Positions 10,075-43,432 of a DNA stretch of 43,432 bases are shown piece by piece. The stretch's first letter is position 1. The number at the start of each line of letters is the position of its first letter. Origin of the DNA: Bacteroidia bacterium (lineage in GTDB: Bacteria; Bacteroidota; Bacteroidia; AKYH767-A; OLB10); contig JAEUTI010000011.1 of assembly GCA_016788065.1 (NCBI GenBank), positions 1 to 43,432 on the forward strand, read 5' to 3'. The position numbers and the translations under genes are program-made. The notes below the pieces were generated by a model. That model saw only the letters and a program-made list of their open reading frames with translations, ran no database searches and was not told the origin of the DNA.

Positions 10075-10088
10075 AGCAGTGGTACCGT

Positions 10089-10826
10089 TCAGGGACGGAT
10101 CATGAGTGAAAATTTCTTCAGGGCATCAAAGAAAACCGAATTTTTTCGTTTCGACACCGGAACTTTGTAGCCATCCTGTAAAGTCACCAGTCCGCCATCT
10201 TCATTCGAAAATTCTTTCAGAAAATGAATGTTGATCATGTATGACTTATGTGTTCTGATAAATACATCGGCAGGTAAAACGCGTTCAAAATCTTTTAAAG
10301 GTTTTGAAATCAGATATTGTTTTCCTTCTCTGGTATAAACGCGGGTGTAATTATCGTCGGCGTGTAAGCGCACAAGATTGGCAATTTCTTCAATAGCAAA
10401 ACCATTCGAATGAGCCAGAGCAATTTTGCTTGCTGCTTCCGTATTTCCTTTTTTTCTGTTTTCGAAAAAAGTAGCAATTTTTCCAGTCGCTTGTTGCAGT
10501 TCTTTGATACTAATGGGTTTCAGAACGTAATCGAGTACGCCTGCTTTCAGTGCCTGAATGCCAAAATCGATGGATGCAGAGACAAAAATCACAGCAAATT
10601 TTCTGTTGGGGAAATGATCCAATAAATCGAATCCATTGTATTGTGGCATCAGAATATCGAGAAAAACAACATCAGGATTCAGCTGATCGATCAATCCTTT
10701 TGCTTCAACAACAGAAGCTGCTTCGCCGGCGATTGAAATTTCCGGACAGTAATTTGTAAGCATGGAACGGAGATTATCTCTGCCATGTTTTTCATCATCA
10801 ACCAAAAGTGCTTTAAATTTACTCAT
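10089..10826 (-). CDS. LytTR-family response regulator
   Basis: A 245-aa cytoplasmic regulator. The receiver domain (1-115) has acidic pair D10-D11, phosphoacceptor D57 in VVFLDILMP, S83 in VIFVSAS and K103 in VLKPIS. The LytTR DNA-binding domain (about 145-240) is shown by YLISKPLKDFERVL, FIRTHKSYMINI and PVSKRKN. It is the first gene of a two-gene operon; the kinase follows after 14 bp. The upstream region shared with the M28 peptidase (10827-11035) is AT-rich and holds only a weak minus-strand match to the promoter consensus (AAATTTTG). Its targets cannot be named, though the divergent peptidase gene is a candidate by proximity only. Confidence 0.93.
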   Translation of the reverse strand: MSKFKALLVDDEKHGRDNLRSMLTNYCPEISIAGEAASVVEAKGLIDQLNPDVVFLDILMPQYNGFDLLDHFPNRKFAVIFVSASIDFGIQALKAGVLDYVLKPISIKELQQATGKIATFFENRKKGNTEAASKIALAHSNGFAIEEIANLVRLHADDNYTRVYTREGKQYLISKPLKDFERVLPADVFIRTHKSYMINIHFLKEFSNEDGGLVTLQDGYKVPVSKRKNSVFFDALKKFSLMIRP

Positions 10827-28572: not shown

Positions 28573-29785
28573 ATTTCTGTTGTTGTTGTGGCTGCTACTG
28601 CTCACAATTCCTGCCATTCCGCAAAGTAAAAAGGAGCTGGAGCGGAAAAAACAGCAGCTGCAAAGAGAGATTGATCAGACTAATAAGGAACTGAATGCAA
28701 CTGCGAAGAGTAAGAAGTTAACTGCCTCTCAGGTTGATGCGCTTAAGAAAAAAATTAAACTTCGTCAGCAATTAATCGGCACCATCAATTCTGAGTTAGA
28801 TGGATTGAGTAGTCAGATTACCACCACATCCGGTGAAATAACATCGCTGGAACATAAGATGGAACAACTACGGAATGAATATGCCAACATGGTACGATTC
28901 GCGCAACGCAATCAGGGAAGCTACCAGAGGTTGATGTTCATTTTTGCTTCCGATGATTTTAATCAGGCATTCAAGCGACTTAAATATCTTCAGCAGTACA
29001 GTGATAGTCGCAAGCGACAGGCAGCATTGATCGACAGCACACAATCGCAACTCAGCAACCGTAAGTCGGAACTTGAGGCTAAGAAGAATGAAAAGACCAG
29101 CTTAAGAAATCAGGAGCTGCAACAAAAGCAGGAGCTTGAAAAAGATAAGAAGGAGCAGGATAAAGTGCTTGCCAATTTGCAGGATCGCGAGAAAAAACTG
29201 AAGAAGCAATTAGCAGAAAAACAAAAAGCAAAACAACGTCTCGATCGCGCTATCGATAATTTGATTCGGAAAGAAATTGAAGCTGCCAAGAAAAAGGCAA
29301 CTGCATCTGGAAAGAAAAATGTGACCAATGCGAATGTCTTTTCGCTGACTCCAGAATCGCAGAAGCTGTCGAATAGTTTTGCCGGCAATAAAGGTAAGTT
29401 GCCATGGCCTGTTGAGAAAGGAAATATCAGCAGCAGCTTTGGTGAGCATCCGCATCCGGAACTAAAAGGAATTGTGGTGAAGAATAATGGTATTGATATT
29501 CGTTCAACACCTAATTCACAGGCGCGTTCGGTGTTCGATGGTGAAGTGAGTGGCGTAATTACCATTCCGGGTTCTAACAGTGCGGTGATTATCAGGCACG
29601 GTGAATACCTTTCGGTATATTCCAATCTCGAGTCGGTTTATGTGAAAAAAGGGGATAAGGTGACCACGCGACAAAAAATCGGGCAGGTTTACACCGATCA
29701 GGCTGAGGGCACTACCGAACTCCATCTGGAAATCTGGAAAGGGACCACTAAACTTAATCCGGCCCCCTGGTTGGCAGGAAAATAG
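28556..29785 (+). CDS. EnvC-like murein hydrolase activator, degenerate M23 domain
   Basis: A 409-aa periplasmic protein. A signal peptide (1-23, KFLLLLWLLLLTIPAIPQ) is followed by a long coiled coil (about 24-250; KKELERKKQQLQREI and repeated KK/EQ heptads) and a C-terminal LytM/M23 fold (about 290-409). Zinc ligands of M23 are partly lost: NNGIDI has Asn where the first His of HxGxD is expected, and YSNL replaces YxHL, while LHLEIW keeps one His. It is therefore probably inactive and, like E. coli EnvC, an activator of cell-wall amidases in division. The ATG at 28556 is chosen over an in-frame start at 28493 because the signal peptide begins there. Confidence 0.85.
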   Translation: MRRCGKFLLLLWLLLLTIPAIPQSKKELERKKQQLQREIDQTNKELNATAKSKKLTASQVDALKKKIKLRQQLIGTINSELDGLSSQITTTSGEITSLEHKMEQLRNEYANMVRFAQRNQGSYQRLMFIFASDDFNQAFKRLKYLQQYSDSRKRQAALIDSTQSQLSNRKSELEAKKNEKTSLRNQELQQKQELEKDKKEQDKVLANLQDREKKLKKQLAEKQKAKQRLDRAIDNLIRKEIEAAKKKATASGKKNVTNANVFSLTPESQKLSNSFAGNKGKLPWPVEKGNISSSFGEHPHPELKGIVVKNNGIDIRSTPNSQARSVFDGEVSGVITIPGSNSAVIIRHGEYLSVYSNLESVYVKKGDKVTTRQKIGQVYTDQAEGTTELHLEIWKGTTKLNPAPWLAGK

Positions 29786-29805
29786 CCAAATCCGAAAATA
29801 TTTTG

Positions 29806-29813
29806 TATTTTTG
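29806..29813 (+). promoter_or_regulatory. -7 promoter element for tatA
   Basis: TATTTTTG, an exact TAnnTTTG, 23 bases before the tatA ATG and 20 bases after the EnvC-like stop. No -33 TTG lies at the expected distance. Confidence 0.5.
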
Positions 29814-29836
29814 CAGCACTAAATAAAGAATAAATC

Positions 29837-30037
29837 ATGTCTACGCTATTGATACTAGGGTTTCTGGGCGGCATCGGCGGTACCGAAATCATCCTGATTA
29901 TTGTGGTTTTACTGCTGTTTTTTGGCGGGAAGAGAATCCCGGAACTGGCAAAAGGGCTGGGAAAAGGTATCCGTGAGTTCAAAGATGCTACTAATGGCAA
30001 ATCTGATGAACCAAAGGAATTGCCTAAAAAAGATTGA
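29837..30037 (+). CDS. tatA: Sec-independent translocase subunit TatA/E
   Basis: A 66-aa membrane protein: one N-terminal transmembrane helix ([15 protein letters not shown]), the hinge [21 protein letters not shown] with the conserved FG and amphipathic helix, then a short charged tail. TatA oligomers form the pore of the twin-arginine pathway; TatC is not in the window. It is a single-gene unit with its own promoter element and a strong terminator just downstream. Confidence 0.95.
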
Positions 30038-30061
30038 CATTCAATAACTTAAATAACTTTT

Positions 30062-30093
30062 AAGCTGTTTCTGAGCCGGAAACAGCTTTTTTT
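30062..30093 (+). terminator. Rho-independent terminator after tatA
   Basis: A perfect 10-bp stem AAGCTGTTTC (30062-30071) with GAAACAGCTT (30079-30088), a 7-base loop, then a run of T to 30093. It starts 24 bases after the tatA stop. Confidence 0.9.
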
Positions 30094-30152
30094 GTGTCTG
30101 GTCGTATTTTTATTCGATTTTAAACTTGAAAGCTTCTTAGTTACTTTGCACT

Positions 30153-30986
30153 ATGTATTATCTGAAATGTAATCATTGTGGACATGCTAATGAACTGAAA
30201 ACGGAGTTCCTCACGTTTTGTAATCAGTGTGGTAAAAAGTTAAATTCCAATTTTCAGGAGTGGAGCAAAGAGCATCCGGGTGCCAGCTTCGACGATTATA
30301 AAAAAATGGTAGGAACCACCGATTTGCAGGTGCTGAAAGAGGGGCCATTTCAAAAAAAGAAAAAGTTCCCGATAATAGCCGGTGTTCTGGTTGGAGTGGC
30401 ATTCATGGGATTATTCACGTATTATATGACGAACATGTCGGGAGTTAGTATTCTCTCTCTGATACGTTCCGGAAAAACTCCTGATTCTATTATACAAAGT
30501 AAATGGGAGCGATATAATTTCGGTCGCTTTGGTTTGTCGGTTGAAGCGCCTGTTAAACCGGAAGCAGTAGAGCTTGCTATTCCTGATGAGGTTAAGCAAC
30601 AGATAAAAGAAATGGAAACATTTCAGTATGCACCGCTCAACGGATTTGAAATGATGGTGAGCAGTGTGTTGTATTCGGAAGGCATTACTGCGAGTCTGGA
30701 AGGTGCTGCAAACGGTTCGCTGAATGAGATTGTAAATAAGCCCGGAGTAAGTAATTTTGAATTCAAGGATAGTCCCGTTACATACAATGAAGTGAATGGT
30801 GTTCTGATAAATGGCAGTTTTCATTTGAATGGTGTTTTTATGCGATTCAGCACTGTTATTTATACTCGCAATTCACACATGTGGCAAGTGTTGGTATCGT
30901 GGCAGGATCAAGATGCGAATGGTAAGATTGCCGCTGAGCGAATTCTTGATTCGGTGGAGATTAATTATTACGTGAAAACTATTTGA
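30153..30986 (+). CDS. Zinc-ribbon membrane protein of unknown function
   Basis: A 277-aa protein not recognised as a named family. The N-terminus is a zinc ribbon with C6-x2-C9 and C23-x2-C26 (KCNHCGH and FCNQCGKK). A single transmembrane helix follows at about 71-91 (FPIIAGVLVGVAFMGLFTYYM), then a C-terminal domain of about 180 residues outside the cytoplasm, with alternating strands and helices. The layout suggests a sensor or tether with a cytoplasmic zinc knuckle. TTACTTTG four bases before the ATG is one base off the promoter consensus and would give a leaderless message. Confidence 0.7.
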   Translation: MYYLKCNHCGHANELKTEFLTFCNQCGKKLNSNFQEWSKEHPGASFDDYKKMVGTTDLQVLKEGPFQKKKKFPIIAGVLVGVAFMGLFTYYMTNMSGVSILSLIRSGKTPDSIIQSKWERYNFGRFGLSVEAPVKPEAVELAIPDEVKQQIKEMETFQYAPLNGFEMMVSSVLYSEGITASLEGAANGSLNEIVNKPGVSNFEFKDSPVTYNEVNGVLINGSFHLNGVFMRFSTVIYTRNSHMWQVLVSWQDQDANGKIAAERILDSVEINYYVKTI

Positions 30987-31043
30987 TACACTATTGCCGG
31001 AAGCAAGTAAATTCCTGTGCGATCACCCATTAAAAAAAATAAA

Positions 31044-31502
31044 ATGAACGGAGCTCATATTCACCTGCTGTTAAATCATGTTCCTATTCTGGGATCTGTC
31101 TTTGCCCTTTGTTTGTTGTTGTATGGTATCTTTTTTAAGAATCGATCCATACTTTATGCGGGACTGGTTACGGTGGTCGTGACTTCGTTAATCGGGATTC
31201 CTGCTTTTTTATCGGGTGAAGAAGCGGAGCACATGGTGGAGCCAATCATTGGCATTAACCGTGAGGCATTGGAAGAGCACGAAGACATGGCCGAAATCGC
31301 ATTTTGGGCGATGCTCATGAATGGGGTGATTGCTCTGGGGACATTATCGTCGGGGCGCAAAACCGGTACTCCTGCGCAAGCGTTGGTATGGCTTAGTCTG
31401 TCGGGTTTATTGCTGGTGACGGTGCTAATGGCCCGCACGGGAGGTTCCGGAGGCGAAATCAGGCATACAGAGATCCATTTGCAGCAGTCTGAGCACGATT
31501 GA
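31044..31502 (+). CDS. Four-helix membrane protein with HxH...NHxP motif
   Basis: A 152-aa integral membrane protein with four hydrophobic helices (about 10-25, 33-55, 85-105 and 115-135). The N-terminus MNGAHIHLLLNHVPILG and the other histidines (EEHED, HTEIH) could bind heme or metal. It recalls small DUF2231-like membrane proteins, but I do not assign it firmly. The ATG at 31044 is preferred over a GTG at 31017, since the extra residues are basic filler and the family-like motif starts at the ATG. The neighbours give no clear functional hint. Confidence 0.65.
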   Translation: MNGAHIHLLLNHVPILGSVFALCLLLYGIFFKNRSILYAGLVTVVVTSLIGIPAFLSGEEAEHMVEPIIGINREALEEHEDMAEIAFWAMLMNGVIALGTLSSGRKTGTPAQALVWLSLSGLLLVTVLMARTGGSGGEIRHTEIHLQQSEHD

Positions 31503-32004: not shown

Positions 32005-32030
32005 GCACCCCTTTGGGGTGCTTTTTTTTT
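32005..32030 (+). terminator. Rho-independent terminator
   Basis: Stem GCACCCC (32005-32011) with GGGGTGC (32015-32021), a 3-base loop TTT, then nine T (32022-32030). It terminates the coiled-coil gene. Confidence 0.9.
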
Positions 32031-32328
32031 GGGGGGGTGGGGGGGTGCTAAAAAGTAAATTCAATGTAGACACAATTTTGGAGAGTAGTAAATTCCAATT
32101 TAGTTTCGTAGTTTTTTGTGGTCTAAAACCTTAGAGATTACTCATCTCTAAACTTAATTGTTACAAATTGATACATTTACTCTTAGAATTATTTTTTTAA
32201 GTGCTTTTCAGTTCAAGTAGCTTCAGGCTTCCATTATTTAACTGGAATTCGGTTTATCCAGATCCAATTACTGACTAAATATCAATTATTTGAAAGTATT
32301 TGCTATTTTCGTAACATAAACATTTCCA
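32031..32328. other. G-run and AT-rich boundary of the defence island
   Basis: Directly after the terminator come seven G, one T and seven G (32031-32045), a run unlike anything else inside the contig. The rest is AT-rich without a gene. TATTTTCG at 32301-32308, one base off the promoter consensus, lies 20 bases before the ATG at 32329. The switch in composition marks the left edge of the island. Confidence 0.55.
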
Positions 32329-33537
32329 ATGAAACAGGATTTAGAATTCCCACAACAAATGACAAATAAAGAGGGTCAAAATATTGAGATTAACAAAGAG
32401 GAAGCTGTAGAATTTTATAAAAAGTTTTATCGTGACAATTTGTTAAATGTAGCAAATCGAAATAAGGCATTAAATGATTTGGAGCAATTGATCAGAAAGC
32501 ATTCAGTAAATGTTGATAGCAACTTTTTAATAACTCAATATTCCTTTGAATCAGAAGCGGAAGATGTCTTAAAAAAGCACTTTTCTTCGGAAATCCTTCA
32601 AGGATTCAATAAAACCTTTAAGCCAGACTTAGATTTAGCTATTGGTGATTCGAAGAACTTATTGCAACTGTATTTGCATGCCATGGCTTATGAAACAGAT
32701 CTTAAGAAAAGGCAAAACTCTTACAGAATTGAATATTTGAGATTTGTATATGACTGTTTAAATGATTATGGGTTGCATAAATATATTTTAGAAAGAGATA
32801 TAGCATTTAAACGTTATAATGTTGTAGTGCACTATTTTGACACCAATAAATTACGAGACTGTGATGAAAAAATGTTGATAAACTATGACATGCTTAAAGA
32901 AAATTATTTGACCCCATATAAGCAGCAGTTGCCAATAAAGATAAATGGCAAATTGATCTTTTTTAAAGATATAATTAGCATTCAAATTACATCCACATTA
33001 TTAATGGATGATGAAATCTATTTATTGGGTTTAAGGGAAGGTTGGAAATGGACAGAGAAGTCTAAAAACAAATATGGGCTAATATTAGCCTCTTGTGATG
33101 AAACTGACGAATTGACAACTAATCCATTCTTACCAGAATCTTTACCGCATGCTCGCATTTCTCAACAATGCATAAATGAACTTAAGAAATTACAGTCTCA
33201 AGAATATAACTTTAATAAATTGATTTTGCTTTTAGAAGAGTTAAATATGAATATGTCAAAAGGAAACTTTTACAGCGTTTCAATGCTAACCAGAGCAATT
33301 ATTGATCACATTCCTCCATTATTCAATGCAAAAAATTTCAGTGAGTTTGTTGCCAATCTTAAGGGCACATCCTTTAAATCAATCATGACCAAACTTGATC
33401 AAACTTCCAGAAAAATAGCAGATATTAGCCTGCATCAATCTATAGAAAAGAAGGAAATACTACTTACGGAAACACAAGTAAACGTGTTTGCAGAATTAGA
33501 AACCCTAATTAATAAAATTATTTCTGAATATAAGTAA
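32329..33537 (+). CDS. Unrecognised 402-aa island protein
   Basis: Not assigned to a family. It is soluble, AT-rich in codons, with no signal peptide or membrane helix. Three blocks can be seen: a helical N-terminus (20-170); a strand-rich middle with LPIKINGKLIFFKDIISIQITSTLL (about 200-260), reminiscent of a small sensor or binding domain; and a helical C-terminus (about 290-402) with KGNFYSVSMLTRAIIDHIPPLF, TSRKIADISLHQSI and EKKEILLTETQVNVF. I have the impression that the last block (RAIIDHxPPxF ... RxIADxxLH) recurs in accessory-region proteins, but no enzymatic domain is visible. It is convergent with the type III-B operon, 174 bp from cmr6, so it may be an independent defence gene or cargo. 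That gap (33538-33711) holds a 13-bp direct duplication of AATAAGCTTGAAC-like sequence near 33561-33586. Confidence 0.6.
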   Translation: MKQDLEFPQQMTNKEGQNIEINKEEAVEFYKKFYRDNLLNVANRNKALNDLEQLIRKHSVNVDSNFLITQYSFESEAEDVLKKHFSSEILQGFNKTFKPDLDLAIGDSKNLLQLYLHAMAYETDLKKRQNSYRIEYLRFVYDCLNDYGLHKYILERDIAFKRYNVVVHYFDTNKLRDCDEKMLINYDMLKENYLTPYKQQLPIKINGKLIFFKDIISIQITSTLLMDDEIYLLGLREGWKWTEKSKNKYGLILASCDETDELTTNPFLPESLPHARISQQCINELKKLQSQEYNFNKLILLLEELNMNMSKGNFYSVSMLTRAIIDHIPPLFNAKNFSEFVANLKGTSFKSIMTKLDQTSRKIADISLHQSIEKKEILLTETQVNVFAELETLINKIISEYK

Positions 33538-33711
33538 TTGATCTGACAAATATGTTAATCAATAAGCTTGAACAATAAGCTTGACCTATAAGCAACTCTC
33601 CTAATAAATGGCCTATATCATATCTATTTTTCATTTGCATACCTCGTAAAATACTTCGACATATAGCTTAATTATTTTAATAAAGTTTCAAGTTGCACGA
33701 ACTTCAACAAA

Positions 33712-34611
33712 TTACTCACTCAATTGACCAAATCCAACATTTGTTTTTGCTCCAATTCCAATAGTTGTTAAGACATGCATGAACAATTTAAGTTTAAGAG
33801 ATGGTGACAGAAGAGAAGAATCTGCAGCCGTATTATCATGTACATAAAATCCAAATCGAAAGCTGATTCCGGGTCTAACTTTAATAAAAGTTATAGGATC
33901 TGGTTCCTTTAGTATTACATCCTGGAGAGGGATTCCTTTTTTGAAATGAGGTGTAATTGTTTCTTTATCAAGAATTTCGGTATTTTTTGTATTCTCAAGC
34001 ATAGCATCAAAAAATACATCTCGTTGATATATTGAAAGTTTATTATCATTTACAATTCCATTAAAAATTTCATTTTCAATCGCAGATATATATTTTTGAT
34101 TCAAAGGATCGCTTCCTGAATTTTTGTCTTTTATGCCATGTATGAAATTTAATAAAAAGAAAGTTTGATTTTCCTTTATCTTTAAGGCTTTGTCTGTTAA
34201 ACGTATCTTTCTTTGATTAGACCAATCGGGAAAAATACTTCTCAGAACTCCTTTGATACTGCTTCCTGGTATATATGGCAAACCTGATGTGTAATCAAAC
34301 GAAAACCCCAATTTAATCTCACCTTTGTACTTAATTTCATGTGAATATCCTGCACCAATTAATAATCCGGGATTAAGAATTTTGAGACAAAAAGACTTCG
34401 AATTATCAAATTGCAAATTTTCGAATAGATTCTTAATAAAAGAGCCATCTACTGAAATGTTGAAAGAACGACTTAAAATCGCCTCATTCTTTTTCTCAAA
34501 ATAGACTTTGTATTTTTCGCTTTTTCGATCACTCAATATTAAAGAAAAGTCGAGTTCTTTATCAGAAAAATATCGAGTATTAAATAACAAATGTAAGTTT
34601 GCGTTATTCAT
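33712..34611 (-). CDS. cmr6: Type III-B CRISPR RAMP protein Cmr6 (Cas7 family)
   Basis: A 299-aa Cas7-type backbone subunit of the Cmr complex. GLLIGAGYSHEI followed by LGFSFDYTSGLPYIPGSSIKGVLRS (about 95-126) is the RAMP core, with the Cmr6 features DVFFDA, ETITPHFKKG and PITFIKVRPG, and a glycine-rich C-terminal loop GIGAKTNVGFGQL. It caps the 3' end of the crRNA in Cmr complexes. It is the last gene of the operon, overlapping cmr5 by 8 bp. No clear terminator follows. Confidence 0.88.
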   Translation of the reverse strand: MNNANLHLLFNTRYFSDKELDFSLILSDRKSEKYKVYFEKKNEAILSRSFNISVDGSFIKNLFENLQFDNSKSFCLKILNPGLLIGAGYSHEIKYKGEIKLGFSFDYTSGLPYIPGSSIKGVLRSIFPDWSNQRKIRLTDKALKIKENQTFFLLNFIHGIKDKNSGSDPLNQKYISAIENEIFNGIVNDNKLSIYQRDVFFDAMLENTKNTEILDKETITPHFKKGIPLQDVILKEPDPITFIKVRPGISFRFGFYVHDNTAADSSLLSPSLKLKLFMHVLTTIGIGAKTNVGFGQLSE

Positions 34612-35020
34612 AATTTTGCAGATTGTATGTTCTTAGAATCAACTTTAGAGCGATACATGCATGAACAATATTGTGTACATGTTGCTCTTTATCAAAATCT
34701 GAAGCAACTTTATAGTTATCAATGAATTTTTCTAAGGTCAATTCACTTTTATTTATAGTAAAGAGTATGGCCTTTAGAACATTATTCGGATCAGCTTCCT
34801 TTTTGCTTGAAGCATGCTTCTTTACAATATTATTCTCGATAGGCTTAGAATACAATATTAAAGTCGGTAAAAGTCCTATTTGGATCAATTTTGGACCAAA
34901 TGCATTGATATAACTTTGATATTCTTTGTTGGTGATCTTTTCGTTTTCAATTATGCCGTATTTTTCAAGTGAAATGTCTGCATTATTGAAAAAGGATTTT
35001 ATAAGGGACTTCTTTATCAT
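34604..35020 (-). CDS. cmr5: Type III-B small subunit Cmr5 (Cas11)
   Basis: A 138-aa, all-helical protein. YQSYINAFGPKLIQIGLLPTLILYSK (about 34-59) is the typical Cmr5 segment. The C-terminal helices (ALKLILRTYNL) agree. Cmr5 copies form the inner filament that runs along the target RNA in the Cmr complex. The start overlaps cmr4 by 4 bp (ATGA) and the stop overlaps cmr6 by 8 bp. Position between cmr4 and cmr6 supports the call despite the short, weakly conserved sequence. Confidence 0.85.
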   Translation of the reverse strand: MIKKSLIKSFFNNADISLEKYGIIENEKITNKEYQSYINAFGPKLIQIGLLPTLILYSKPIENNIVKKHASSKKEADPNNVLKAILFTINKSELTLEKFIDNYKVASDFDKEQHVHNIVHACIALKLILRTYNLQNYE

Positions 35021-35865
35021 AGTGAATCATATAAACATAGTTTACACCAGCCATAGCCAATTGATGCATTAGCTCCAATTTGCACAATTGGATTAGATTT
35101 CAAGGTTTTTTCGAACGCATTGCATTTAGATTCATATGAAATAAAGCTATAAAAATGCGTGTATCGAGGCAATACCTGCTCATAAAATAGATTTTTACTT
35201 ATCCCGTGATCTAAATTGTTTCTAGCAATAAATGGTAAATTATAGTCATTTACTCTTCGAGCCAGATTGGAATGGTTGACCAATATTAAATTACCCCCAA
35301 ACAGTAATTCAATTTCAGGGGTAATATCAAATGAATTAGGCCTTGTGATGATGATATCTTCTGCAGTATTGTTTGTTAGATTCTCTGCAGATGGGCTTAA
35401 TTTTAAACCTTTATTCAAATCAATTTCTTTTAAAGAAAGCTTATGCAGAACATCCATCATTTTTTCATTGACAGGGAAGTGAAATAGTTTGGTTTGTTCA
35501 AGAAATGAGATTATTAATTCCGGGCTGGTCGCATTATAATATGGGTATGAATCACCACGGTAAGGAAATGAAAGTAATGTTGCTTCCTGAAAATAGTAGT
35601 TACCACGTTTCATCAGTTCAGTTTTCGCTTCATTTCTTTCTGAACCAAAGACAGCTATAAGATCTGCTTCAGGAAACTGTCTATTTGCTACTTCGAAATT
35701 TATCCTTTCCCTCAGAGCGCCCTTCAACCCGGAACCCGGAATACCAGGTAAATTAGTCGTAAAATCACGATAAATGAGATTGTCGATTATTCCTGAAGAT
35801 TCTGAGCCTGAACCAACATGAAGATTAGCCTGATTAACGATACTAACTAATTGTGAATGAATCAT
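35017..35865 (-). CDS. cmr4: Type III-B backbone and target RNase Cmr4 (Cas7)
   Basis: A 282-aa Cas7 subunit that polymerises along the crRNA and cuts target RNA every 6 nt. NLHVGSGSESSGIIDNLIYRDF (14-35) is the Cmr4 N-terminal motif; D28 corresponds to the catalytic aspartate of the family, so RNase activity is expected. LPGIPGSGLKGALRERI (39-55) is the RAMP core, and IGANASIGYGWCKL the C-terminal glycine loop. It overlaps both neighbours by 4 bp (ATGA). Confidence 0.9.
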   Translation of the reverse strand: MIHSQLVSIVNQANLHVGSGSESSGIIDNLIYRDFTTNLPGIPGSGLKGALRERINFEVANRQFPEADLIAVFGSERNEAKTELMKRGNYYFQEATLLSFPYRGDSYPYYNATSPELIISFLEQTKLFHFPVNEKMMDVLHKLSLKEIDLNKGLKLSPSAENLTNNTAEDIIITRPNSFDITPEIELLFGGNLILVNHSNLARRVNDYNLPFIARNNLDHGISKNLFYEQVLPRYTHFYSFISYESKCNAFEKTLKSNPIVQIGANASIGYGWCKLCLYDSL

Positions 35866-36980
35866 ATTTTTTCTAATGTAAATTGATTATAACCAATAAG
35901 TGAATAAGCTGGGTGAGCTTCAATCAGCCTGATGGCTTCATTTAGGACGCTGCCGTGAATATAAAAAACCGAACCAGAGTCATAAAATGTTTCTTTACCA
36001 CCTTTAAAAGCGGTGTTCAGATCATCCTTTTGAGCAAGCCCGGCATAATTAATCGTTTTCGTGGAAGTACGAATATTCCTAAAATGAATTAGGCTACTCA
36101 TACCGCCTTTAACGTAGTTCATGAATTCAGAACCTACTTTCAATGGACTTATAGCTGTCAATCTGTAATCTTCATTCATATCATAGTTTTCTTTTGAGTT
36201 TTCAATTCTTTCATCATCTAAAGAGCATTCACGAACTTCAAAACTAAACAAGCTACCTTCACCACCAACTTTACATATAAATTTGCCCAAGTGAGATAAT
36301 CTTTCACTTAATACTATGTCAACTCCAAATGAAAAATTAGAAAGAAGCTTAACAACTTCTTTTTTGAAATAGCCATCAAGAGGTTCATCGGAAAAAGTGT
36401 TTTTTGCATTTGATGTGATTGTAAATCGTTTAAAAATATCCTGCTCAGTATAAAAATAAGTTTTGTTTTTATTTGTCCAAATCTTGCCAAAGTAGTACTG
36501 TTTATGATTAAAGTTAATATTTGAAACAGTTTCTTTTCGAAGAACTTCATTTACTGAAGACTCATATGCATTTGTTTCAGTAATTAGATGAGCAATGTTC
36601 TGGTTTGGATTTGATTGGAAGAAATCTTTTCTAAGCGGAGTAAGTTTAACAGCTTCTTGCGAATTTTTATTCTTATGAAGTATATATACTGGGCTTAATT
36701 TTCTAATTATTCCAAATGAATCGTTTCTCCCATTGAATGAAGTTGGTCCAATGAGAAAATCAGGTGAATTGGAAATCAGATTAATGTCAATAAACCCGTT
36801 TAGAATCGCATACCTAAGCGTACCGAGGATCGTTGTTTGCTGAGGCAGCAACATTGAACGAACGAAATAATTTTCTCTTCCACCATCAGCAGGGTTATAA
36901 CTGGACTCACCTCCAAAAAAGTAGTGCGAGATGGGTTTGATTTCACATTGGTATATGAATTGTTTAGTTGTCATTTTCAT
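35862..36980 (-). CDS. cmr3: Type III-B subunit Cmr3 (Cas5 family)
   Basis: A 372-aa Cas5-type subunit that holds the crRNA 5' handle and contacts Cas10. The N-terminal IKPISHYFFGGESSYN and LPQQTTILGTLRYAILNGF match Cmr3 (dispensing with the RAMP loop but keeping the FFGG and TxxGxLR elements). SPLKVGSEFMNYVKGGM and the C-terminal SLIGYNQFTLEKI also fit. The ATG at 36980 overlaps the end of cas10 by 17 bp; a second ATG lies two codons later at 36974, and an in-frame TTG at 36995 is less likely. Confidence 0.85.
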   Translation of the reverse strand: MKMTTKQFIYQCEIKPISHYFFGGESSYNPADGGRENYFVRSMLLPQQTTILGTLRYAILNGFIDINLISNSPDFLIGPTSFNGRNDSFGIIRKLSPVYILHKNKNSQEAVKLTPLRKDFFQSNPNQNIAHLITETNAYESSVNEVLRKETVSNINFNHKQYYFGKIWTNKNKTYFYTEQDIFKRFTITSNAKNTFSDEPLDGYFKKEVVKLLSNFSFGVDIVLSERLSHLGKFICKVGGEGSLFSFEVRECSLDDERIENSKENYDMNEDYRLTAISPLKVGSEFMNYVKGGMSSLIHFRNIRTSTKTINYAGLAQKDDLNTAFKGGKETFYDSGSVFYIHGSVLNEAIRLIEAHPAYSLIGYNQFTLEKI

Positions 36981-38493
36981 CCAATCCCTTAGCAAAATTA
37001 ATGTATCTTAATAAATTATAAGTCAATTCTAGACTGCTTTTTAACTCGCCTTGTTCTTTTAGAATAATTTCGTTTAAGAGAACTGTTGAACTTTCTAAAT
37101 ATTTGTTGGATGAGTAATCCTCAATATTATTTTTAAAGAAGTTAGTACGTCTGTTGAAATTGACACCAATATATTCATGCAAATCACTAAATTCATGTAA
37201 ATTATGTATGAAACTATTAAGTAAATTATCCTTATTTGCAAATTTGAGGGTATCAAGAAATTTGGAATAAATAGCAGAATTGGGATCAAGTGAAAATTGA
37301 AACTTTCTTCCGGAATGCTTCCTCACAAGAATATTAAGGTGATTTACTTTCTTATTAAACTTCATCTCTGCAAGTAATTCATGGGCATTTATCAATGCCT
37401 CAGCTAAAGGGAATTTATAATAGAAGATGCTGATCCCAAAGGAAATCCCTAAGTCCGGCATGTTCTTTGAATTCACAGTGATTTTAAACTCCCTTTGAAT
37501 TATTTTGCACAGTTCAATAATATCGGATCCATTACTTACAATTGGTGAGACAAATAAGAGGTCGTCACCACCTACATAAATCGGGACTGCTGAAAATTCT
37601 TTTAAAATATTGTAGGTATAATTTGACCAATTGAACATAGTCTCTGAAAACTTTAACTTTTCTACATCATTTAGTGTTGATAGATAATTACCAACGCCAT
37701 CTGCATCTGCAGTTACAATTGCTACATATTTATGGTGAGACTTTATAACATTTTGCTGTACTAGATTTTTTAATTCTTTGAAAAATGAATTATCATTTTC
37801 TTCATTTGAATTAAAAAAGTACTTATTAATCAAGCTGCTTTTGTCTTGATTTGGAAGATTATGAAGCAAAGATGCGGTTGCTATTTCAAGCAAGCTTGGA
37901 AAGCGGTCATCTTGTTTAGTTTTATATTGCGATTTGAAAAATTCAGTATCTGGCAGTTTGTTAAATAATCTTTGAAGAAAACGATTTTCGTCAAATTCAA
38001 TTATCCGGTTTTCAAGATCAGCCTGTTGGAGCAAATCTATAACACGGCTAATGTTCTCATGCGATGAATTGATAGAATTGGTATTAAGTAAGTCGTCAAT
38101 ATTTAATTTGATAGAATTTACTCTGAAATATTGTTGCGAAAATTTCAATGCCTCATCAAAATTAATTAAACCCGGAACCTGAATTAATGATGCATAATTT
38201 ACCAAGACAGATTCGATAATGGATCGAACAATGTCAAGTTTCAGGTCAGATTTTGATGCTACTATTAATCTGTCCGGGTATGTACCAACTCCTTTTTTAG
38301 AACCTTCCTTTAATATTTCATGATTTGGCAAGATGAAGATTATTGAATCTCCATATTTTATTGTTAATTCGTTACAAATAGATTTCATCAGAAATGAAAA
38401 GGTGTATGAACAAAACCAAAGTTCACGAAGGCGACGGGCACTTCCAAGAAAACGTGTAATTGGACCAATTGTAATTCCTAAGTAATATGTCAT
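36964..38493 (-). CDS. cas10: Type III-B Cas10/Cmr2, HD-less with GGDD cyclase
   Basis: A 509-aa large subunit. It starts straight in the Cmr2 palm-like region (YYLGITIGPITRFLGSARRLRELWFCSYTFSFLMK), with no upstream HD nuclease domain and no HD motif. The catalytic palm has TADADGVGNYL (D263, D265) and YVGGDDLLFV (G308-G309-D310-D311), so the nucleotidyl cyclase site is intact. On target RNA binding it should make a nucleotide second messenger. In Cmr loci with CorA that product is known to be SAM-AMP, and the CorA gene here points the same way. No zinc-binding cysteine cluster of the usual type is obvious. It overlaps cmr1 by 4 bp and cmr3 by 17 bp. Confidence 0.93.
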   Translation of the reverse strand: MTYYLGITIGPITRFLGSARRLRELWFCSYTFSFLMKSICNELTIKYGDSIIFILPNHEILKEGSKKGVGTYPDRLIVASKSDLKLDIVRSIIESVLVNYASLIQVPGLINFDEALKFSQQYFRVNSIKLNIDDLLNTNSINSSHENISRVIDLLQQADLENRIIEFDENRFLQRLFNKLPDTEFFKSQYKTKQDDRFPSLLEIATASLLHNLPNQDKSSLINKYFFNSNEENDNSFFKELKNLVQQNVIKSHHKYVAIVTADADGVGNYLSTLNDVEKLKFSETMFNWSNYTYNILKEFSAVPIYVGGDDLLFVSPIVSNGSDIIELCKIIQREFKITVNSKNMPDLGISFGISIFYYKFPLAEALINAHELLAEMKFNKKVNHLNILVRKHSGRKFQFSLDPNSAIYSKFLDTLKFANKDNLLNSFIHNLHEFSDLHEYIGVNFNRRTNFFKNNIEDYSSNKYLESSTVLLNEIILKEQGELKSSLELTYNLLRYINFAKGLDENDN

Positions 38494-39623
38494 GCCCTTG
38501 AATAAATTAGTTTGTAGTGTTTAGCAAGATTCATTTCTAAAAATTCTTTCAAATCAAATTCACCGCTTCCAGGAGCATAAATTGAGTCAAATTTTACTGT
38601 TTTAAACTCATATCGACTTTTACTCAAAACATCGAATTTAAATTCATTTGCAAATATGCTCTTATGAATTTCCCTAACTAATATATATATATTGTTGTTA
38701 ATCAATTTATAAGTAAGAGGTGATGGGAAGCGCTCTATTTTATTATTCGCATCTCTTACTCCTATTTGAACTTTATCTCTAGACTTAAGAATGCGGTATT
38801 CATATTGATTAGGCATACCGAGCAGTATTCGTACAAATGCATATTGCAATTTATCTTTTTCAATTGTATTTCTGAAATGATTCTTAGATATAAGACTCAA
38901 AAGGTTTTTCTTTGAAAAGGATAAGTATATAAAATCTTTTTCCCAATAAACCGGCGGTCTTTTTGAAATGAAATATTTCTGTATTGCAGATTTTTCTCTC
39001 TTAGCTAAATCTTCAGATTTCAGAGCTTTGTATTGACTTAATGTTAACTCAAAAAACGGAATAAAGGAATTATTTGGAGTTAGATTCGCAATTGCTGACC
39101 AGCATAAAAAATATTCATTTGAGTATGCAATGGCTTCTACAAATTTACTTTCCTCAAAGGTAACATCTACTCCATCAATTTTCGATACAGTAAAGCTTCC
39201 AAATCCTTTCGTTTTTCGATTTCCAAAATTATTGCACATGTAGAACCCCGGAATATAAACTTTTATGGCATCAATTAGTTCGCTAAAATAGGATATGATT
39301 TCGAGTTGAATGATTTTGTAAATAAAACCGGAACCTTCACCAAAATAGTTACCCAGAATTTGTTTTGGAGTTTGGTTTCCTTTTTTCTGTGTTGAAATTT
39401 TGAATTCTTCATGTTGTTCACATTTGATTCTTAATTTGTAATTTAGCGCTTTGTTATTCTCTTTGTCGATAAACCAATCTTCTTCAATATTTTTTATTGT
39501 TTTGAGAAGCCACCTATCCAAAGCTGGTTTGATTTCACTTGCGCGCAAACCATTTTCGGGCACGCTTGATTTAGAATGAATTAGCGGTGTATGTTGTTTG
39601 AGATGTATAGTTGTTTTAAACAT
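38490..39623 (-). CDS. cmr1: Type III-B RAMP protein Cmr1 (Cas7 family)
   Basis: A 377-aa protein. The N-terminus TIHLKQHTPLIHSKSSVPENGLRASEIKPALDRWLLKTI is a RAMP core as in Cmr1 (TPL followed by LRxSxIKxALRxW). NNFGNRKTKGFGSFTV is the basic glycine-rich loop (about 130-145). Cmr1 sits at the head of the Cmr complex near the crRNA 3' end. The sequence is diverged: the loop has Asn where Arg/Gly are common. It begins 2 bp after the CorA gene and overlaps cas10 by 4 bp. Confidence 0.82.
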   Translation of the reverse strand: MFKTTIHLKQHTPLIHSKSSVPENGLRASEIKPALDRWLLKTIKNIEEDWFIDKENNKALNYKLRIKCEQHEEFKISTQKKGNQTPKQILGNYFGEGSGFIYKIIQLEIISYFSELIDAIKVYIPGFYMCNNFGNRKTKGFGSFTVSKIDGVDVTFEESKFVEAIAYSNEYFLCWSAIANLTPNNSFIPFFELTLSQYKALKSEDLAKREKSAIQKYFISKRPPVYWEKDFIYLSFSKKNLLSLISKNHFRNTIEKDKLQYAFVRILLGMPNQYEYRILKSRDKVQIGVRDANNKIERFPSPLTYKLINNNIYILVREIHKSIFANEFKFDVLSKSRYEFKTVKFDSIYAPGSGEFDLKEFLEMNLAKHYKLIYSRA

Positions 39624-39625
39624 TT

Positions 39626-41218
39626 CTATTTGTTTAAGAATTTGTTAATTAGGATCGTGATTAAAGTCGCAATCACTGCCCATATGGTAACCACAGCAAA
39701 TCTGGATATATCGAAATTGGTAAATGAAAGAACTTTAATGTCATCAATGAACCATGCAAAAAATGAAATTAATACCGATGCCGGCAGAAATTTACTCGCT
39801 ATTCTGTTTAGCACTTTAGATTCATGATTCAGCACAAAACTTTTCAATTCTTCAACTTCGGCTTTTAGCATTTTAGCATCTTCCGGAATTCCCATTTGAT
39901 TTTGTAACAAACTATAAAGTTCCATTCCTTGTAATTGTGGTGTTACCTGCCTGAAATAAATGCGATTAATAAAGATTAAATAGTTTTGGTGTAATTCTTC
40001 AATCAGATCTATTAGATCTCTCTTTAACCTAATTTTTCCTTTATTTCTCTTTTCTTTAATTTTCCCGGCAATAATTTGAACCTCACTTGAATACGAAACT
40101 ATTGACCCATATTGAACCAATGAAAGCAAAACCATTTGATAATATTGATGTGTGAAGTGTTTCTTTATGAAATCTTCATTAAAATTTACTTTTTCACTTA
40201 CCAATAAAACAAAAGAATACGGTGTTATGCCATATAATTGACTTGGCCCATCGGAATCTAACCACCTTTCGTAAGTTGCTGATTTATTTAGTTGTTTCAA
40301 AAAAGATTTCCCCTTACATGAAACTTGATTACCGTCTATATAAATCAATTTATGCCATTCGGGATCTGTTGTGTATTGATATTCATTAGTTGAATCTGAC
40401 CATAATTTTAGTTTGTTTATGAGTGGGTCATTTTCAACACAGCACATTGTAAACATTCTATCATCACTAATTGGGTATAAATTGATTTTACGTTCAGGAT
40501 TCAGCGGATTGAACGATTCTCCTAGTAGGCCGATGATATAATTTGGTAAGCAATTTATATTTTTCCCTAATGTTTCGATATTATCAAAATCCGTGAAACT
40601 ATCCTCAGTTGACAGTAGACTGTTGAATTTAAAGGCTATATTTGAGGCAAGAAAGTTGGACTTTATCGGTTGGGTTAATTTGTTGGACACTTTTTCAGGA
40701 TCTTCCGCTGTATTATCAAGGTATGCAGGATACACCCTTCGAAATACATCATTAAAACATCTGATCTCATCCAAATTTAATATTTCGGAATTTTCAAGAA
40801 AAAAAGAGATTACTCCAACTCCGGAGGAAAAGAAATTGACATGCACAGCTGTTAGACTTATTGACAATTGGGTAAGCTTTTTCTCTTTTTCGATCTGAAT
40901 CGTAACTGATGAATCCTTATCTAATTTTGCTATGTACCGGCTGCAATCGGTAATATTTTCATTTTCGCTATGTCTTAGCACATCGTGAGTGAAACGATAA
41001 AAGTATCGCAGTTCATTGTAAGGGTTAAATAATTTTGCAGTTTCGCTGTTGATTGCAAATTTATATGGCTCGAGGGATGAAGCTTTATCCAGTATTTCGG
41101 AAATCGTTTCAATATTTTTCCGAGTGTTGAAAGAACTGGTTTTACGCTCGCTGATAGGCTGTTCTACATCCCATGTAAAACCGAATAAAAATATATGTGA
41201 ACTGTTTGTTTTTTTCAT
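39626..41218 (-). CDS. corA: CRISPR-associated CorA-like membrane effector
   Basis: A 530-aa protein with a large soluble N-terminal part, a long helical stalk (about 420-475: LQNQMGIPEDAKMLKAEVEELKSFV) and two C-terminal membrane helices at about 477-491 and 507-525. This is the CorA fold, but the GMN motif between the helices, needed for magnesium selectivity in transporters, is absent (the loop reads FAWFIDDIKVLSF). Membrane proteins of this kind are the SAM-AMP-gated effectors of Cmr systems, for example in Bacteroides fragilis; binding is thought to disrupt the membrane of infected cells. That role is inferred here from architecture and position. It overlaps the exonuclease gene by 4 bp and sits 2 bp before cmr1. 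Confidence 0.78.
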   Translation of the reverse strand: MKKTNSSHIFLFGFTWDVEQPISERKTSSFNTRKNIETISEILDKASSLEPYKFAINSETAKLFNPYNELRYFYRFTHDVLRHSENENITDCSRYIAKLDKDSSVTIQIEKEKKLTQLSISLTAVHVNFFSSGVGVISFFLENSEILNLDEIRCFNDVFRRVYPAYLDNTAEDPEKVSNKLTQPIKSNFLASNIAFKFNSLLSTEDSFTDFDNIETLGKNINCLPNYIIGLLGESFNPLNPERKINLYPISDDRMFTMCCVENDPLINKLKLWSDSTNEYQYTTDPEWHKLIYIDGNQVSCKGKSFLKQLNKSATYERWLDSDGPSQLYGITPYSFVLLVSEKVNFNEDFIKKHFTHQYYQMVLLSLVQYGSIVSYSSEVQIIAGKIKEKRNKGKIRLKRDLIDLIEELHQNYLIFINRIYFRQVTPQLQGMELYSLLQNQMGIPEDAKMLKAEVEELKSFVLNHESKVLNRIASKFLPASVLISFFAWFIDDIKVLSFTNFDISRFAVVTIWAVIATLITILINKFLNK

Positions 41219-41760
41219 GATTCTGTGCTCATCAACTCAAAATAACACTCTTTTAGTAACATTGCATCGTAATAAGCGTGATGGAGTTTTATACCGTGAA
41301 TGCTTTCGGGAAAACTACTCAAACTATTTCTGCTGATATCCGTGGTTCCATTCCTGGCTAATATCATAGAATTCAAATCTATTGGAAACGGAGAAATATA
41401 TTCTGGTAAGTTCGGTTTAAAACAAGGTAATTTGAAAAAAAATTTCCAATCATAATAGGCGACATCCGTGACTATTGTAACCTTGTAACTATCATCCTTA
41501 TAACTTTCAATAAATTCGTATACACTCCTTGCTATTTGATGATAATTTCCACGAACACTTATTAAAGTATCAACTATTGTGGGCAAGTTTCCAAGCTGAG
41601 GAATTACATTTTGGTATACAAAATCTGAGCATGTATTTTTATTAAAATCATCACACTCGCCATAGAACCCATTGCCTGCTTCATCAACCAAAGCAATAGA
41701 AATTAGTTCCGACTGGAAGGTCAAATTTGTGAATTCCGTATCAAGAAAAATTAAAGTCAT
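41215..41760 (-). CDS. DEDDh 3'-5' exonuclease, CRISPR-associated
   Basis: A 181-aa single-domain exonuclease of the DnaQ/RNase T fold. Catalytic residues: D7 and E9 in IFLDTEFT (ExoI), D99 or D104 in TDVAYYDWKF (ExoII), and H160-x4-D165 in LHHAYYDAMLL (ExoIII). It is the first gene of the effector operon and is coupled to CorA by a 4-bp ATGA overlap. Other Cmr-CorA loci have a phosphodiesterase (NrN) or SAM-AMP lyase in this place to remove the messenger. By position this enzyme is a candidate off-switch; it could instead trim crRNA 3' ends or degrade viral nucleic acid. A consensus promoter lies 20 bases upstream. Confidence 0.85.
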   Translation of the reverse strand: MTLIFLDTEFTNLTFQSELISIALVDEAGNGFYGECDDFNKNTCSDFVYQNVIPQLGNLPTIVDTLISVRGNYHQIARSVYEFIESYKDDSYKVTIVTDVAYYDWKFFFKLPCFKPNLPEYISPFPIDLNSMILARNGTTDISRNSLSSFPESIHGIKLHHAYYDAMLLKECYFELMSTES

Positions 41761-41909: not shown

Positions 41910-42479
41910 ATTGCAACATCAACGAAGGTCGGCCTCTTTTGGGACTGTGGCGTGCAATAAAATACAAAAGTTTCACCCGTCTCAACAGCTACGTAGGTCA
42001 GTCCCTTCGGGGACAAACCAACTATATGAAAAAAACAATTACAATTTTGTCTCAAAACCAATGTAGGTCGGTCCCTTCGGGGACCGTGTTGTTCTGGTAA
42101 AGGTTGTAAAATAGTCTCAACACCTACGTAGGTCGGTCCCTGCGGGGACGGTAGTGCATTAGTGCTTCGCAAATGTAAATCGTCTCAACACCTACGTAGG
42201 TCGGTCCCTTCGGGGACGCGGAATATTCACGTTGGTATCAAAAACATGGGTCTCAACACCTACGTAGGTCGGTCCCTTCGGGGACATTTTAGTAATGGGT
42301 TTGCGTTACTTGGTAGTCTCAACACCTACGTAGGTCGGTCCCTTCGGGGACAACCAACCGAATAACTAAAAATTGAGAAGTCTCAACACCTACGTAGGTC
42401 GGTCCCTTCGGGGACAATTATTTCACATAAAATCAAAAATTATGTCTCAACACCTACGTAGGTCGGTCCCTTCGGGGAC
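41910..42479 (-). CRISPR. CRISPR array 1: nine 36-bp repeats, eight spacers
   Basis: Repeats start at 41910, 41979, 42049, 42114, 42182, 42250, 42316, 42380 and 42444. Spacers are 28-34 bp. As written on plus, the repeat begins GTCTCAACAC, has the palindrome CCTACGTAGG, and ends with the hairpin GTCCC-TTCG-GGGAC. The repeats at 41910 (about 10 changes), 41979 (2), 42049 (3) and 42114 (1) are decayed; the last five are identical. Decay marks the old, leader-distal end, so the array reads on the minus strand. The crRNA 5' handle would then be GUUGAGAC. The cas operon starts 150 bp beyond the decayed end. Confidence 0.96.
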
Positions 42480-42595: not shown

Positions 42596-42865
42596 TCAAC
42601 TAATATAGTGGTGATCATCATCATTATCAAGCTTATCTGAATTGTAGCCGTAAGCGAGTTTTTTAGCATTAGCATCAAGTATAAAGATTCGAATATTACT
42701 AATCTCAAAATTCAATTTCTCAACTTCTGTAATTAAATTACGTAATTGGGATTCTGAAATCCTGCATTGAAATACTCTTTTCTGAATTCTAAAACCAAAA
42801 CCGGAAATCACCTTATCCGCTGCAGTGCGCTCCTTATCATTTGTAATATCGTAAACAACGAGATA
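42596..42865 (-). pseudogene. cas2: cas2 without a start codon
   Basis: From 42865 the minus strand reads YLVVYDITNDKERTAADK, then VISGFGFRIQKRVFQCRISE, to ILDANAKKLAYGY and a TGA at 42598-42596. This is a near full-length Cas2 (89 residues), including the conserved Asp of VVYDI and the RVFQCR strand. The codon before the first tyrosine is TAA, where ATG is expected, and no ATG, GTG or TTG precedes the catalytic strand. The first usable start, GTG at 42811, would remove that strand. Cas2 is the structural partner of Cas1 in spacer acquisition; this copy is probably not made in working form. It lies between the two arrays, with a cas1 remnant just upstream. Confidence 0.8.
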
Positions 42866-42909: not shown

Positions 42910-43106
42910 TCAAATTTTCCATTGAATAAAAGTTAGCGATTGAAAATCTTTAGCCCAACGTTTTTCTATCAGTGCTTGACAATAAATTTGTTCTTTCCAA
43001 ATGAGTTCAGATCTGCACATTTTTCGATTAAGTTCAGCTTCAAATTCCAATAGGAATTTCCTTCAGCCTTTCATCCGAAGCTTTTTACCATATGTTTTTT
43101 AAAGCC
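42910..43106 (-). pseudogene. cas1: C-terminal remnant of cas1, frameshifted
   Basis: Two frames on the minus strand carry pieces of a Cas1 C-terminus. From 43106 one frame reads GFKKHMVKSFG, then TGA, then KAEG. The adjacent frame continues RKFLLEFEAELNRKM and, to its TGA at 42912-42910, QIYCQALIEKRW and FIQWKI. FEAELNRKM and a terminal aromatic-rich segment are typical of the Cas1 end. The 5' part is missing: the fragment begins exactly at a decayed CRISPR repeat. About 45 bases separate it from cas2, as expected for an old cas1-cas2 pair. The assignment is from pattern memory. Confidence 0.62.
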
Positions 43107-43432
43107 GGAACACCTACATAGGTCGGTCCCTTCGGGGGCACGATACGATTGATATTTCTTACTAACATAGTCTCAACACCTACGTAGGTCTGTCCCTTCG
43201 GGGACATTTCCAAAGATGTTGGAAGTAAGCTCAAAGTCTCAACACCTACGTAGGTCGGTCCCTTCGGGGACTATATACTATGAAAAACTTCCTCTTAATC
43301 CTAAGTCTCAACACCTACGTAGGTCGGTCCCTTCGGGGACATTCGTAGTTATATCCATGTTGGTATCAAAGTCTCAACACCTACGTAGGTCGGTCCCTTC
43401 GGGGACTATATACTATGAAAAACTTCCTCTTA
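43104..43432 (-). CRISPR. CRISPR array 2: five repeats, cut by contig end
   Basis: The repeat is the same as in array 1; copies start at 43104 (decayed, first five bases changed), 43170 (one change), 43236, 43305 and 43371. Spacers are 30-33 bp, and the last one is cut after 26 bases by the contig end. The decayed copy abuts the cas1 remnant, so the leader lies beyond the window to the right and the array reads on the minus strand. The final 67 bases (43366-43432) repeat 43231-43297 exactly, including the start of the spacer at 43272. Confidence 0.95.

Follow-up and report, generated by a model that had tools for sequence, protein, structure and literature searches.

A strain-specific gene beside a type III-B CRISPR operon encodes a rare, unnamed domain that may be HEPN-like

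What does an unrecognized gene do when it lies beside a CRISPR operon, and does it belong to that operon? We asked this of a gene for a 402-aa protein in a 43,432-nt stretch of DNA from a Bacteroidia bacterium (GCA_016788065.1, contig JAEUTI010000011.1), which we call the window. Our preferred reading, to which we give a probability of roughly 0.4, is that the protein would be a stand-alone sensor joined to an HEPN-like effector that acts on RNA and arrests growth under attack, and that its gene would be island cargo and not a III-B component.

The ORF starts with ATG and ends with TAA. Since 300 single-base shuffles of positions 32046-33700 gave no open frame longer than 123 codons, compared to the 405 observed, it is not a chance frame; it is a real protein-coding gene. 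Its GC content is 0.303 (0.295 at third codon positions, GC3), compared to 0.295-0.347 (GC3 0.227-0.307) for seven genes of the III-B operon, including a CorA-like gene, and 0.395-0.481 (GC3 0.370-0.528) for seven genes on its left. The gene and cmr6 (33712-34611, minus strand) converge, with 174 nt between them. Coordinates, base composition, and spacing thus confirm the initial annotation, which had placed the ORF in an AT-rich island facing cmr6. A terminator-like site (32005-32021) follows the preceding gene, and a gap of 346 nt lies in front of ours, which probably has a separate transcript. A promoter scan found 12 sites, and since this number is no higher than shuffles would give (mean 9.6, sd 2.8), we claim no promoter.

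A sister genome of the same genus (G029) matched the left flank with 96% DNA identity by blastn, window positions 28652-31129 lying on one contig and 30896-32045 on another. The last alignment (96% over 1151 columns) ended at 32045, 284 nt upstream of the 402-aa start codon and directly past the terminator of the preceding gene, a junction with some room for assembly error, G029 being a draft of about 350 contigs. Beyond this point G029 carries different genes, and the 402-aa protein had no match there. Because the sequence changes at 32045, a strain-specific stretch begins here, with the 402-aa gene as its first gene. This AT-rich stretch extends from the 402-aa gene across the III-B operon as far as the CRISPR repeats; its right end was not found inside the window. 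The gene at the same site in G029 (L068, 1204-2412, minus strand) by chance also encodes 402 aa and had no Pfam match at E 0.001.

Table 1. Features of the 402-aa gene and its surroundings, in window positions
Feature	Position	Strand	Basis
402-aa gene	32329..33537	+	ORF list and translation; longest shuffled frame 123 codons versus 405
N-terminal part, residues 1-269	32329..33135	+	no relatives found; helical, low confidence
C-terminal domain, possibly HEPN-like, residues 270-402	33136..33534	+	family alignments, AlphaFold2 model, structural neighbors
RAIIDHIPPLF, residues 322-332	33292..33324	+	column counts, 30 rows
RKIADISLH, residues 361-369	33409..33435	+	column counts, DUF4145 motif comparison
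Terminator-like stem 3′ of the preceding gene, between that gene and the 402-aa gene	32005..32021	+	terminator scan
Left junction of the strain-specific stretch	32045..32046		blastn against sister genome G029
Gap up to convergent cmr6	33538..33711		ORF list; cmr6 by PADLOC

The III-B operon (33712-41760, minus strand) consists of cmr6-5-4-3-cas10-cmr1, the CorA-like gene, and a gene of the DEDDh type. Its Cas10 has 509 aa, with GGDD at position 308. The operon looks like the SAM-AMP/CorA type described in excerpts of PMC12255297, in which the slot held by DEDDh in the window is occupied by NrN or a SAM-AMP lyase. Two CRISPR stretches (41979-42479 and 43170-43406) share one 36-nt repeat, found in 12 copies at up to three mismatches, and the window ends within the second. 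Between them lie an 89-codon frame that resembles Cas2 by eye (42596-42865, minus strand) and a short frame that resembles the tail of Cas1 by eye (42910-43062, minus strand), possibly decayed adaptation genes.

One explanation is that the 402-aa protein is an ancillary III-B effector, triggered by the nucleotide signal of that system and acting beside CorA or instead of it. Csm6 and Csx1 effectors typically act through HEPN domains, and the gene adjoins cmr6 and shares the strain-specific stretch and base composition of the operon. We consider this explanation very unlikely, as the gene lies on the opposite strand and has an upstream region of its own, the operon already contains CorA-like and DEDDh genes, and CARF and SAVED gave no library match in the protein, whose N-terminal half was modeled at low confidence. 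Relatives of the window Cas10 were found in five of 345 genomes of the host phylum, its own included. The four other III-B loci all contained Cas10, Cmr4, and Cmr1; the C-terminal domain of our protein was absent within 14-15 kb of each, including one with a CorA-like gene (L071), in a search that detected the positive control (L002). No CRISPR-like arrays of exact repeats were found at the other loci that we examined. Across the four III-B loci of the host phylum, the link between the domain and III-B is not conserved. In L071, the CorA-like gene (9045-10637, minus strand) adjoins cmr1, as in the window. Of the anti-phage factor proposed in the initial annotation, there remains an uncharacterized, accessory protein on a CRISPR-bearing, strain-specific stretch, with a domain that may be HEPN-like; a functional tie to III-B is not supported.

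Searches with the 402-aa protein against Pfam, NCBIfam, PADLOC, and PDB sequences gave no meaningful match, and the earlier statement that it has no known enzymatic motif holds in these libraries. A Pfam match to CPDase (E 0.11) was judged to be chance. When plasmids were searched with tblastn, nine records matched, all within residues 238-401, and in these records the protein is annotated "hypothetical protein." When residues 1-267 were searched on their own, no match turned up among plasmids, phages, or viral contigs. Phage records yielded no relative. In PHROGs, residues 284-399 weakly matched one 621-position phage family without an assigned function (phrog_37804, E 2.4e-4), and this match covers only positions 371-484 of the family.

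Scanning genome contigs with an alignment of the C-terminal region yielded 24 candidates, of which 15 were domain loci; a scan with the single protein gave 23 pattern stretches and no relative. Two scans of viral contigs, partly the same contigs, yielded seven and 11 domain loci. By record title, the sources include Flavobacterium, a Spirochaetes MAG, Syntrophaceae, Herpetosiphon, Rhizobiales, Gammaproteobacteria, cyanobacteria, sphingomonads, and Streptomyces. The C-terminal domain is a family without a name whose members occur across several phyla of bacteria and also on plasmids and in viral contigs. Its distribution is rare and patchy. In whole-genome samples, where all counts are lower bounds, at least one of 42 genomes of the host order and at least one of 395 of the host phylum (by protein and again by profile) were positive, in each case the window's own genome. 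Samples around two relatives gave at least two of 244 and at least one of 274, the starting genome counted in each. A second copy in the Herpetosiphon genome (L045, 748-1899), split into two ORFs relative to the first, is possibly a decayed paralog.

The domain follows different N-terminal halves. Cut from 29 proteins, the N-terminal pieces measured 104 to 271 residues and fell into 15 clusters (blastp E<1e-3); some of these may be distant kin, since L008 and L049, two whole proteins from different clusters, can be aligned over 211 residues. Conflict proteins that pair a sensor with an effector are usually built this way, with one domain behind many N-terminal halves, and by this analogy the layout suggests such a role. 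HEPN proteins with swapped AbiJ-NTD domains are described in excerpts of PMC3710099.

We next consider the fold. In the full-length model, all but residues 271-402 was poor, with most of the N-terminal part below a pLDDT of 70. The initial annotation had described a strand-rich middle; residues 143-270 have pLDDT values under 50 and only two five-residue strands, which does not bear this out. An AlphaFold2 model of the domain alone (residues 270-402) was confident (pLDDT 90.7, pTM 0.83) and forms an all-helical bundle, with main helices at model residues 10-17, 27-41, 45-57, 78-100, and 118-132. H369 (model residue 100) sits at the extreme end of the long helix.

When the domain model was compared to known structures with VIA-align, HEPN proteins headed the list at Z scores of 7.6-8.8, although VIA-align's own note places scores near 8.8 within reach of unrelated helical bundles and below the level trusted for them. 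These neighbors included 2hsb, titled HEPN (Z 8.8, rmsd 2.8 over 106 residues), Csm6 (6tug; Z 8.6, rmsd 3.8 over 113), and MntA-HepT (6m6u; Z 8.4, rmsd 3.0 over 103). Rows 1-11 comprised six entries for HEPN, MntA-HepT, Csm6, or SO_3166-SO_3165 and five structural-genomics entries, four of which we take to be HEPN; Dfer_2879 (3mfn) is the only one of these 11 rows without a HEPN placement. Among the six is 7bxo, titled only "toxin-antitoxin," which, like SO_3166, is presumably HepT. The full-length model gave a similar list. Foldseek returned nothing significant, with vinculin tail first (best E 0.27), and a BFVD structure search found nothing at E 0.001. We judged the vinculin-tail and alpha-catenin matches to be common helical bundles.

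Because Foldseek puts vinculin tails first, without significance, and Z scores of about 8.8 are common among helical bundles, we call the fold only HEPN-like; the model suggests that it may be HEPN, short of proof. The structure prediction and fold search proposed in the initial annotation thus gave a confident helical domain with HEPN first in VIA-align, and fell short in Foldseek and in the poorly modeled N-terminal half. HEPN is a fold common in anti-phage effectors, to which the C-terminal domain may belong.

The two C-terminal strings singled out in the initial annotation proved to be the best-conserved part of a real domain family. Our alignment has 30 rows, two of which (L003 and L016) are one protein in two records. 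Its signature is RAI[LIM]DH[VI]PP ... [RK]-x2-A-D-x2-L-H. L298, R322, H327, P329, P330, and H369 are invariant across all 30 rows, followed by D365 and F337 (29 each) and E304 and N306 (28 each). Position 326 is D in 28 rows and N in two, and position 361 is R in 27 and K in three. A literature search of a limited collection found no mention of these motif strings.

HEPN RNases bear Rx4-6H, according to excerpts of PMC3710099. The family departs from this canonical motif: the spacing is R361-x7-H369, and position 364, where the canonical catalytic arginine would lie (H-5), is A in 25 rows, T in two, G in two, and S in one. The second HEPN motif in those excerpts is Ex3[KR]; R322-x3-D326 carries an acidic residue in 28 of 30 rows, in the reverse order. 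HepT/MntA toxins and the Csm6 HEPN domain, among the best VIA-align neighbors (Z 7.6-8.8), likewise differ in having Rx4-6H where our domain has R-x7-H. No MNT antitoxin or CARF domain was found in the proteins scanned at the 402-aa locus. As the polar residues R322, H327, and H369 are invariant and D365 and R/K361 nearly so, the alignment argues for an active or binding site, and we propose that RKIADISLH forms the end of an active-site or ligand-binding helix.

DUF4145 (PF13643), a helical bundle, offers a parallel in motif layout. It has R-x2-x-[ED] in one helix, followed by [RK]-x2-[GA]-[ND]-x3-H, as in our domain, and excerpts of PMC3710099 place it after many other domains. Our domain differs in having A-D in place of G-N, an invariant H-x-PP right after the R-x3-D motif, and no HMMER match to DUF4145. 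Among 25 domain members, no Pfam HEPN or DUF4145 match was significant (one member gave Csx1_HEPN at E 0.28). DUF4145 was absent from the results for the 402-aa protein and from the 22 families returned for the 25 members at E up to 1. The window domain alone matched no Pfam family, and a search of 41 genomes, the host and its relatives, turned up no DUF4145. The best line overall, to the nematode allergen family NPA in one member (E 7.1e-5), was judged to be chance.

We compared the motifs to 20 DUF4145 domains, four places taken from 56 genomes and 16 from 148. R occupies H-8 in 15 of the 20 and K in three, in two of which (L079 and L088) the wrong histidine was taken. Since the search rule for DUF4145 required N or D at H-4, agreement at that position counts for nothing. 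An R-x3-[EDQ] helix is present in 14 of 20 rows, 50-58 residues ahead of the histidine in 12, and the other six lack the pattern. The corresponding distance in our family is 47-48 residues in the nine rows with the right histidine; the first-histidine rule took the wrong one in 21 of our 30 rows, and the family counts given above come from a separate column count.

Profile comparison with hhalign gave P 0.0021 with 25 rows and 0.003 with 30, at probabilities of 10-13%. The first motif aligned locally, and both motifs aligned upon forced extension (P 0.0021, probability 13%). In a column-shuffle control, a rough one, four of 500 shuffles scored as well, with one outlier at 134.5; an earlier run gave three of 200 at P 0.0021 or less, with an outlier at 210. 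Against the reversed DUF4145 profile, P was 0.11; a comparison to only four DUF4145 domains, with a probability of 1.1%, added no information. The profile and the motif register are together supportive of kinship and not conclusive. From the fold ranking and the motif register, at no significant profile match, we infer that the domain may be kin to HEPN.

A further comparison is BxaP, which in excerpts of PMC10799925 also combines a predicted HEPN-type domain with another domain in one anti-phage protein. There, DUF4145 is N-terminal and linked to BREX; our domain is C-terminal, and its partner half has no known relatives.

The departures from the canonical motif raise an alternative that we regard as somewhat unlikely: the domain may be HEPN-like and non-catalytic, binding RNA or a nucleotide or dimerizing, in a regulator that reads DNA or some other signal through its N-terminal half. 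The catalytic arginine position is A, T, G, or S in all 30 rows, and excerpts of PMC3710099 argue that motif-less HEPN domains may bind RNA. The N termini of L007, L008, L014, and L049 appear winged-helix-like by eye; among those scanned, only L014 had a Pfam helix-turn-helix line, below the cut-off (E 0.024). At L007 (8629-10366), L008 (1418-2699), and L049 (3082-4279), from three distant sources, the domain gene overlaps its upstream gene by 11-14 nt, an overlap that depends on the start codon chosen. The upstream partners, of 266, 194, or 163 aa, had no Pfam match over the cut-off; they too look winged-helix-like by eye and perhaps represent a two-gene form of the system. Against a regulator, a pure scaffold would not usually keep several charged residues invariant, as this domain does, many DUF4145 domains also have R at H-8, and excerpts of PMC3710099 score the DUF4145 motif as mostly conserved.

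The initial annotation had suggested surveying the neighborhoods of homologs, with mainly housekeeping contexts counting against a defense role. On a Methylobacter plasmid, a homolog lies between a DUF3644 gene (PDC-S19, E 5.3e-145) and a GajA/GajB Gabija pair. A cytosine methylase lies near the domain gene at both L015 and L048, and at L048 there is also an HNH gene upstream. We scanned 139 neighboring proteins at 24 loci (134 of 161 listed proteins plus five overlapping a target gene), considering the best 25 of 272 families in one scan and the best 25 of 113 in the other. Among the best 25 of 113 Pfam families, phage integrase was commonest, with three occurrences; portal, cytosine methylase, cytochrome c550, AAA_25, resolvase, and HNH occurred twice each; and phage structural and housekeeping genes occurred singly. 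We claim no enrichment.

All-against-all blastp of 25 neighborhoods (E 1e-4, ORFs of at least 90 aa), with the near-identical L003/L016 regions set aside, found no partner gene common to three loci. Partners were shared by pairs only (L011/L023, L014/L015, L015/L048, L022/L024, and L047/L053). The neighbors of the relatives are mixed, from plasmid and prophage genes to some defense and some housekeeping genes, and are not mainly defense. The survey thus neither places the homologs mainly in housekeeping contexts nor clearly rejects such contexts.

These mixed contexts bear on another explanation, that the protein is a housekeeping or metabolic accessory with no part in conflict and that its HEPN resemblance reflects the commonness of helical bundles. 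The fold and profile scores are weak, and some relatives lie among ordinary genes (cytochrome c550, ABC transporter, Mg-chelatase). We consider this unlikely, as the domain is patchy, plasmid- and virus-borne, strain-specific, and attached to many different N termini.

We return to the stand-alone sensor-effector. In that model, the variable N-terminal half would sense something or hold the protein off. Once released, the C-terminal HEPN-like domain would act on RNA, by cleavage or by binding that blocks translation, using H369 with D365, R361, and R322. This would arrest growth during phage or plasmid attack, perhaps by abortive infection, and the gene would travel with the CRISPR island as cargo, outside the III-B system. 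The analysis itself establishes the ORF, the domain family with its varied N termini and conserved residues, the presence of that family on plasmids and viral contigs, and the strain-specific location of the gene; HEPN kinship, RNA as target, toxicity, a defense role, and control by the N-terminal half are all parts that we infer.

A broader proposal is, in our estimation, doubtful: that the domain founds a new HEPN-type effector family with a shifted active site and interchangeable sensors, a widespread stand-alone anti-phage class. The same doubt attaches to its proposed motif, [RK]-x2-[AG]-D-x2-L-H with an invariant R-x3-D-H-x-PP helix, and to the sensor of the window, so far unique, as part of it. 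If true, a domain now recorded as "hypothetical protein" on plasmids would turn into an effector class open to test, and the various N-terminal halves attached to it into candidate phage sensors. It would also mean that R-x7-H is compatible with an HEPN-type active site; the spacings of many DUF4145 domains already raise this question.
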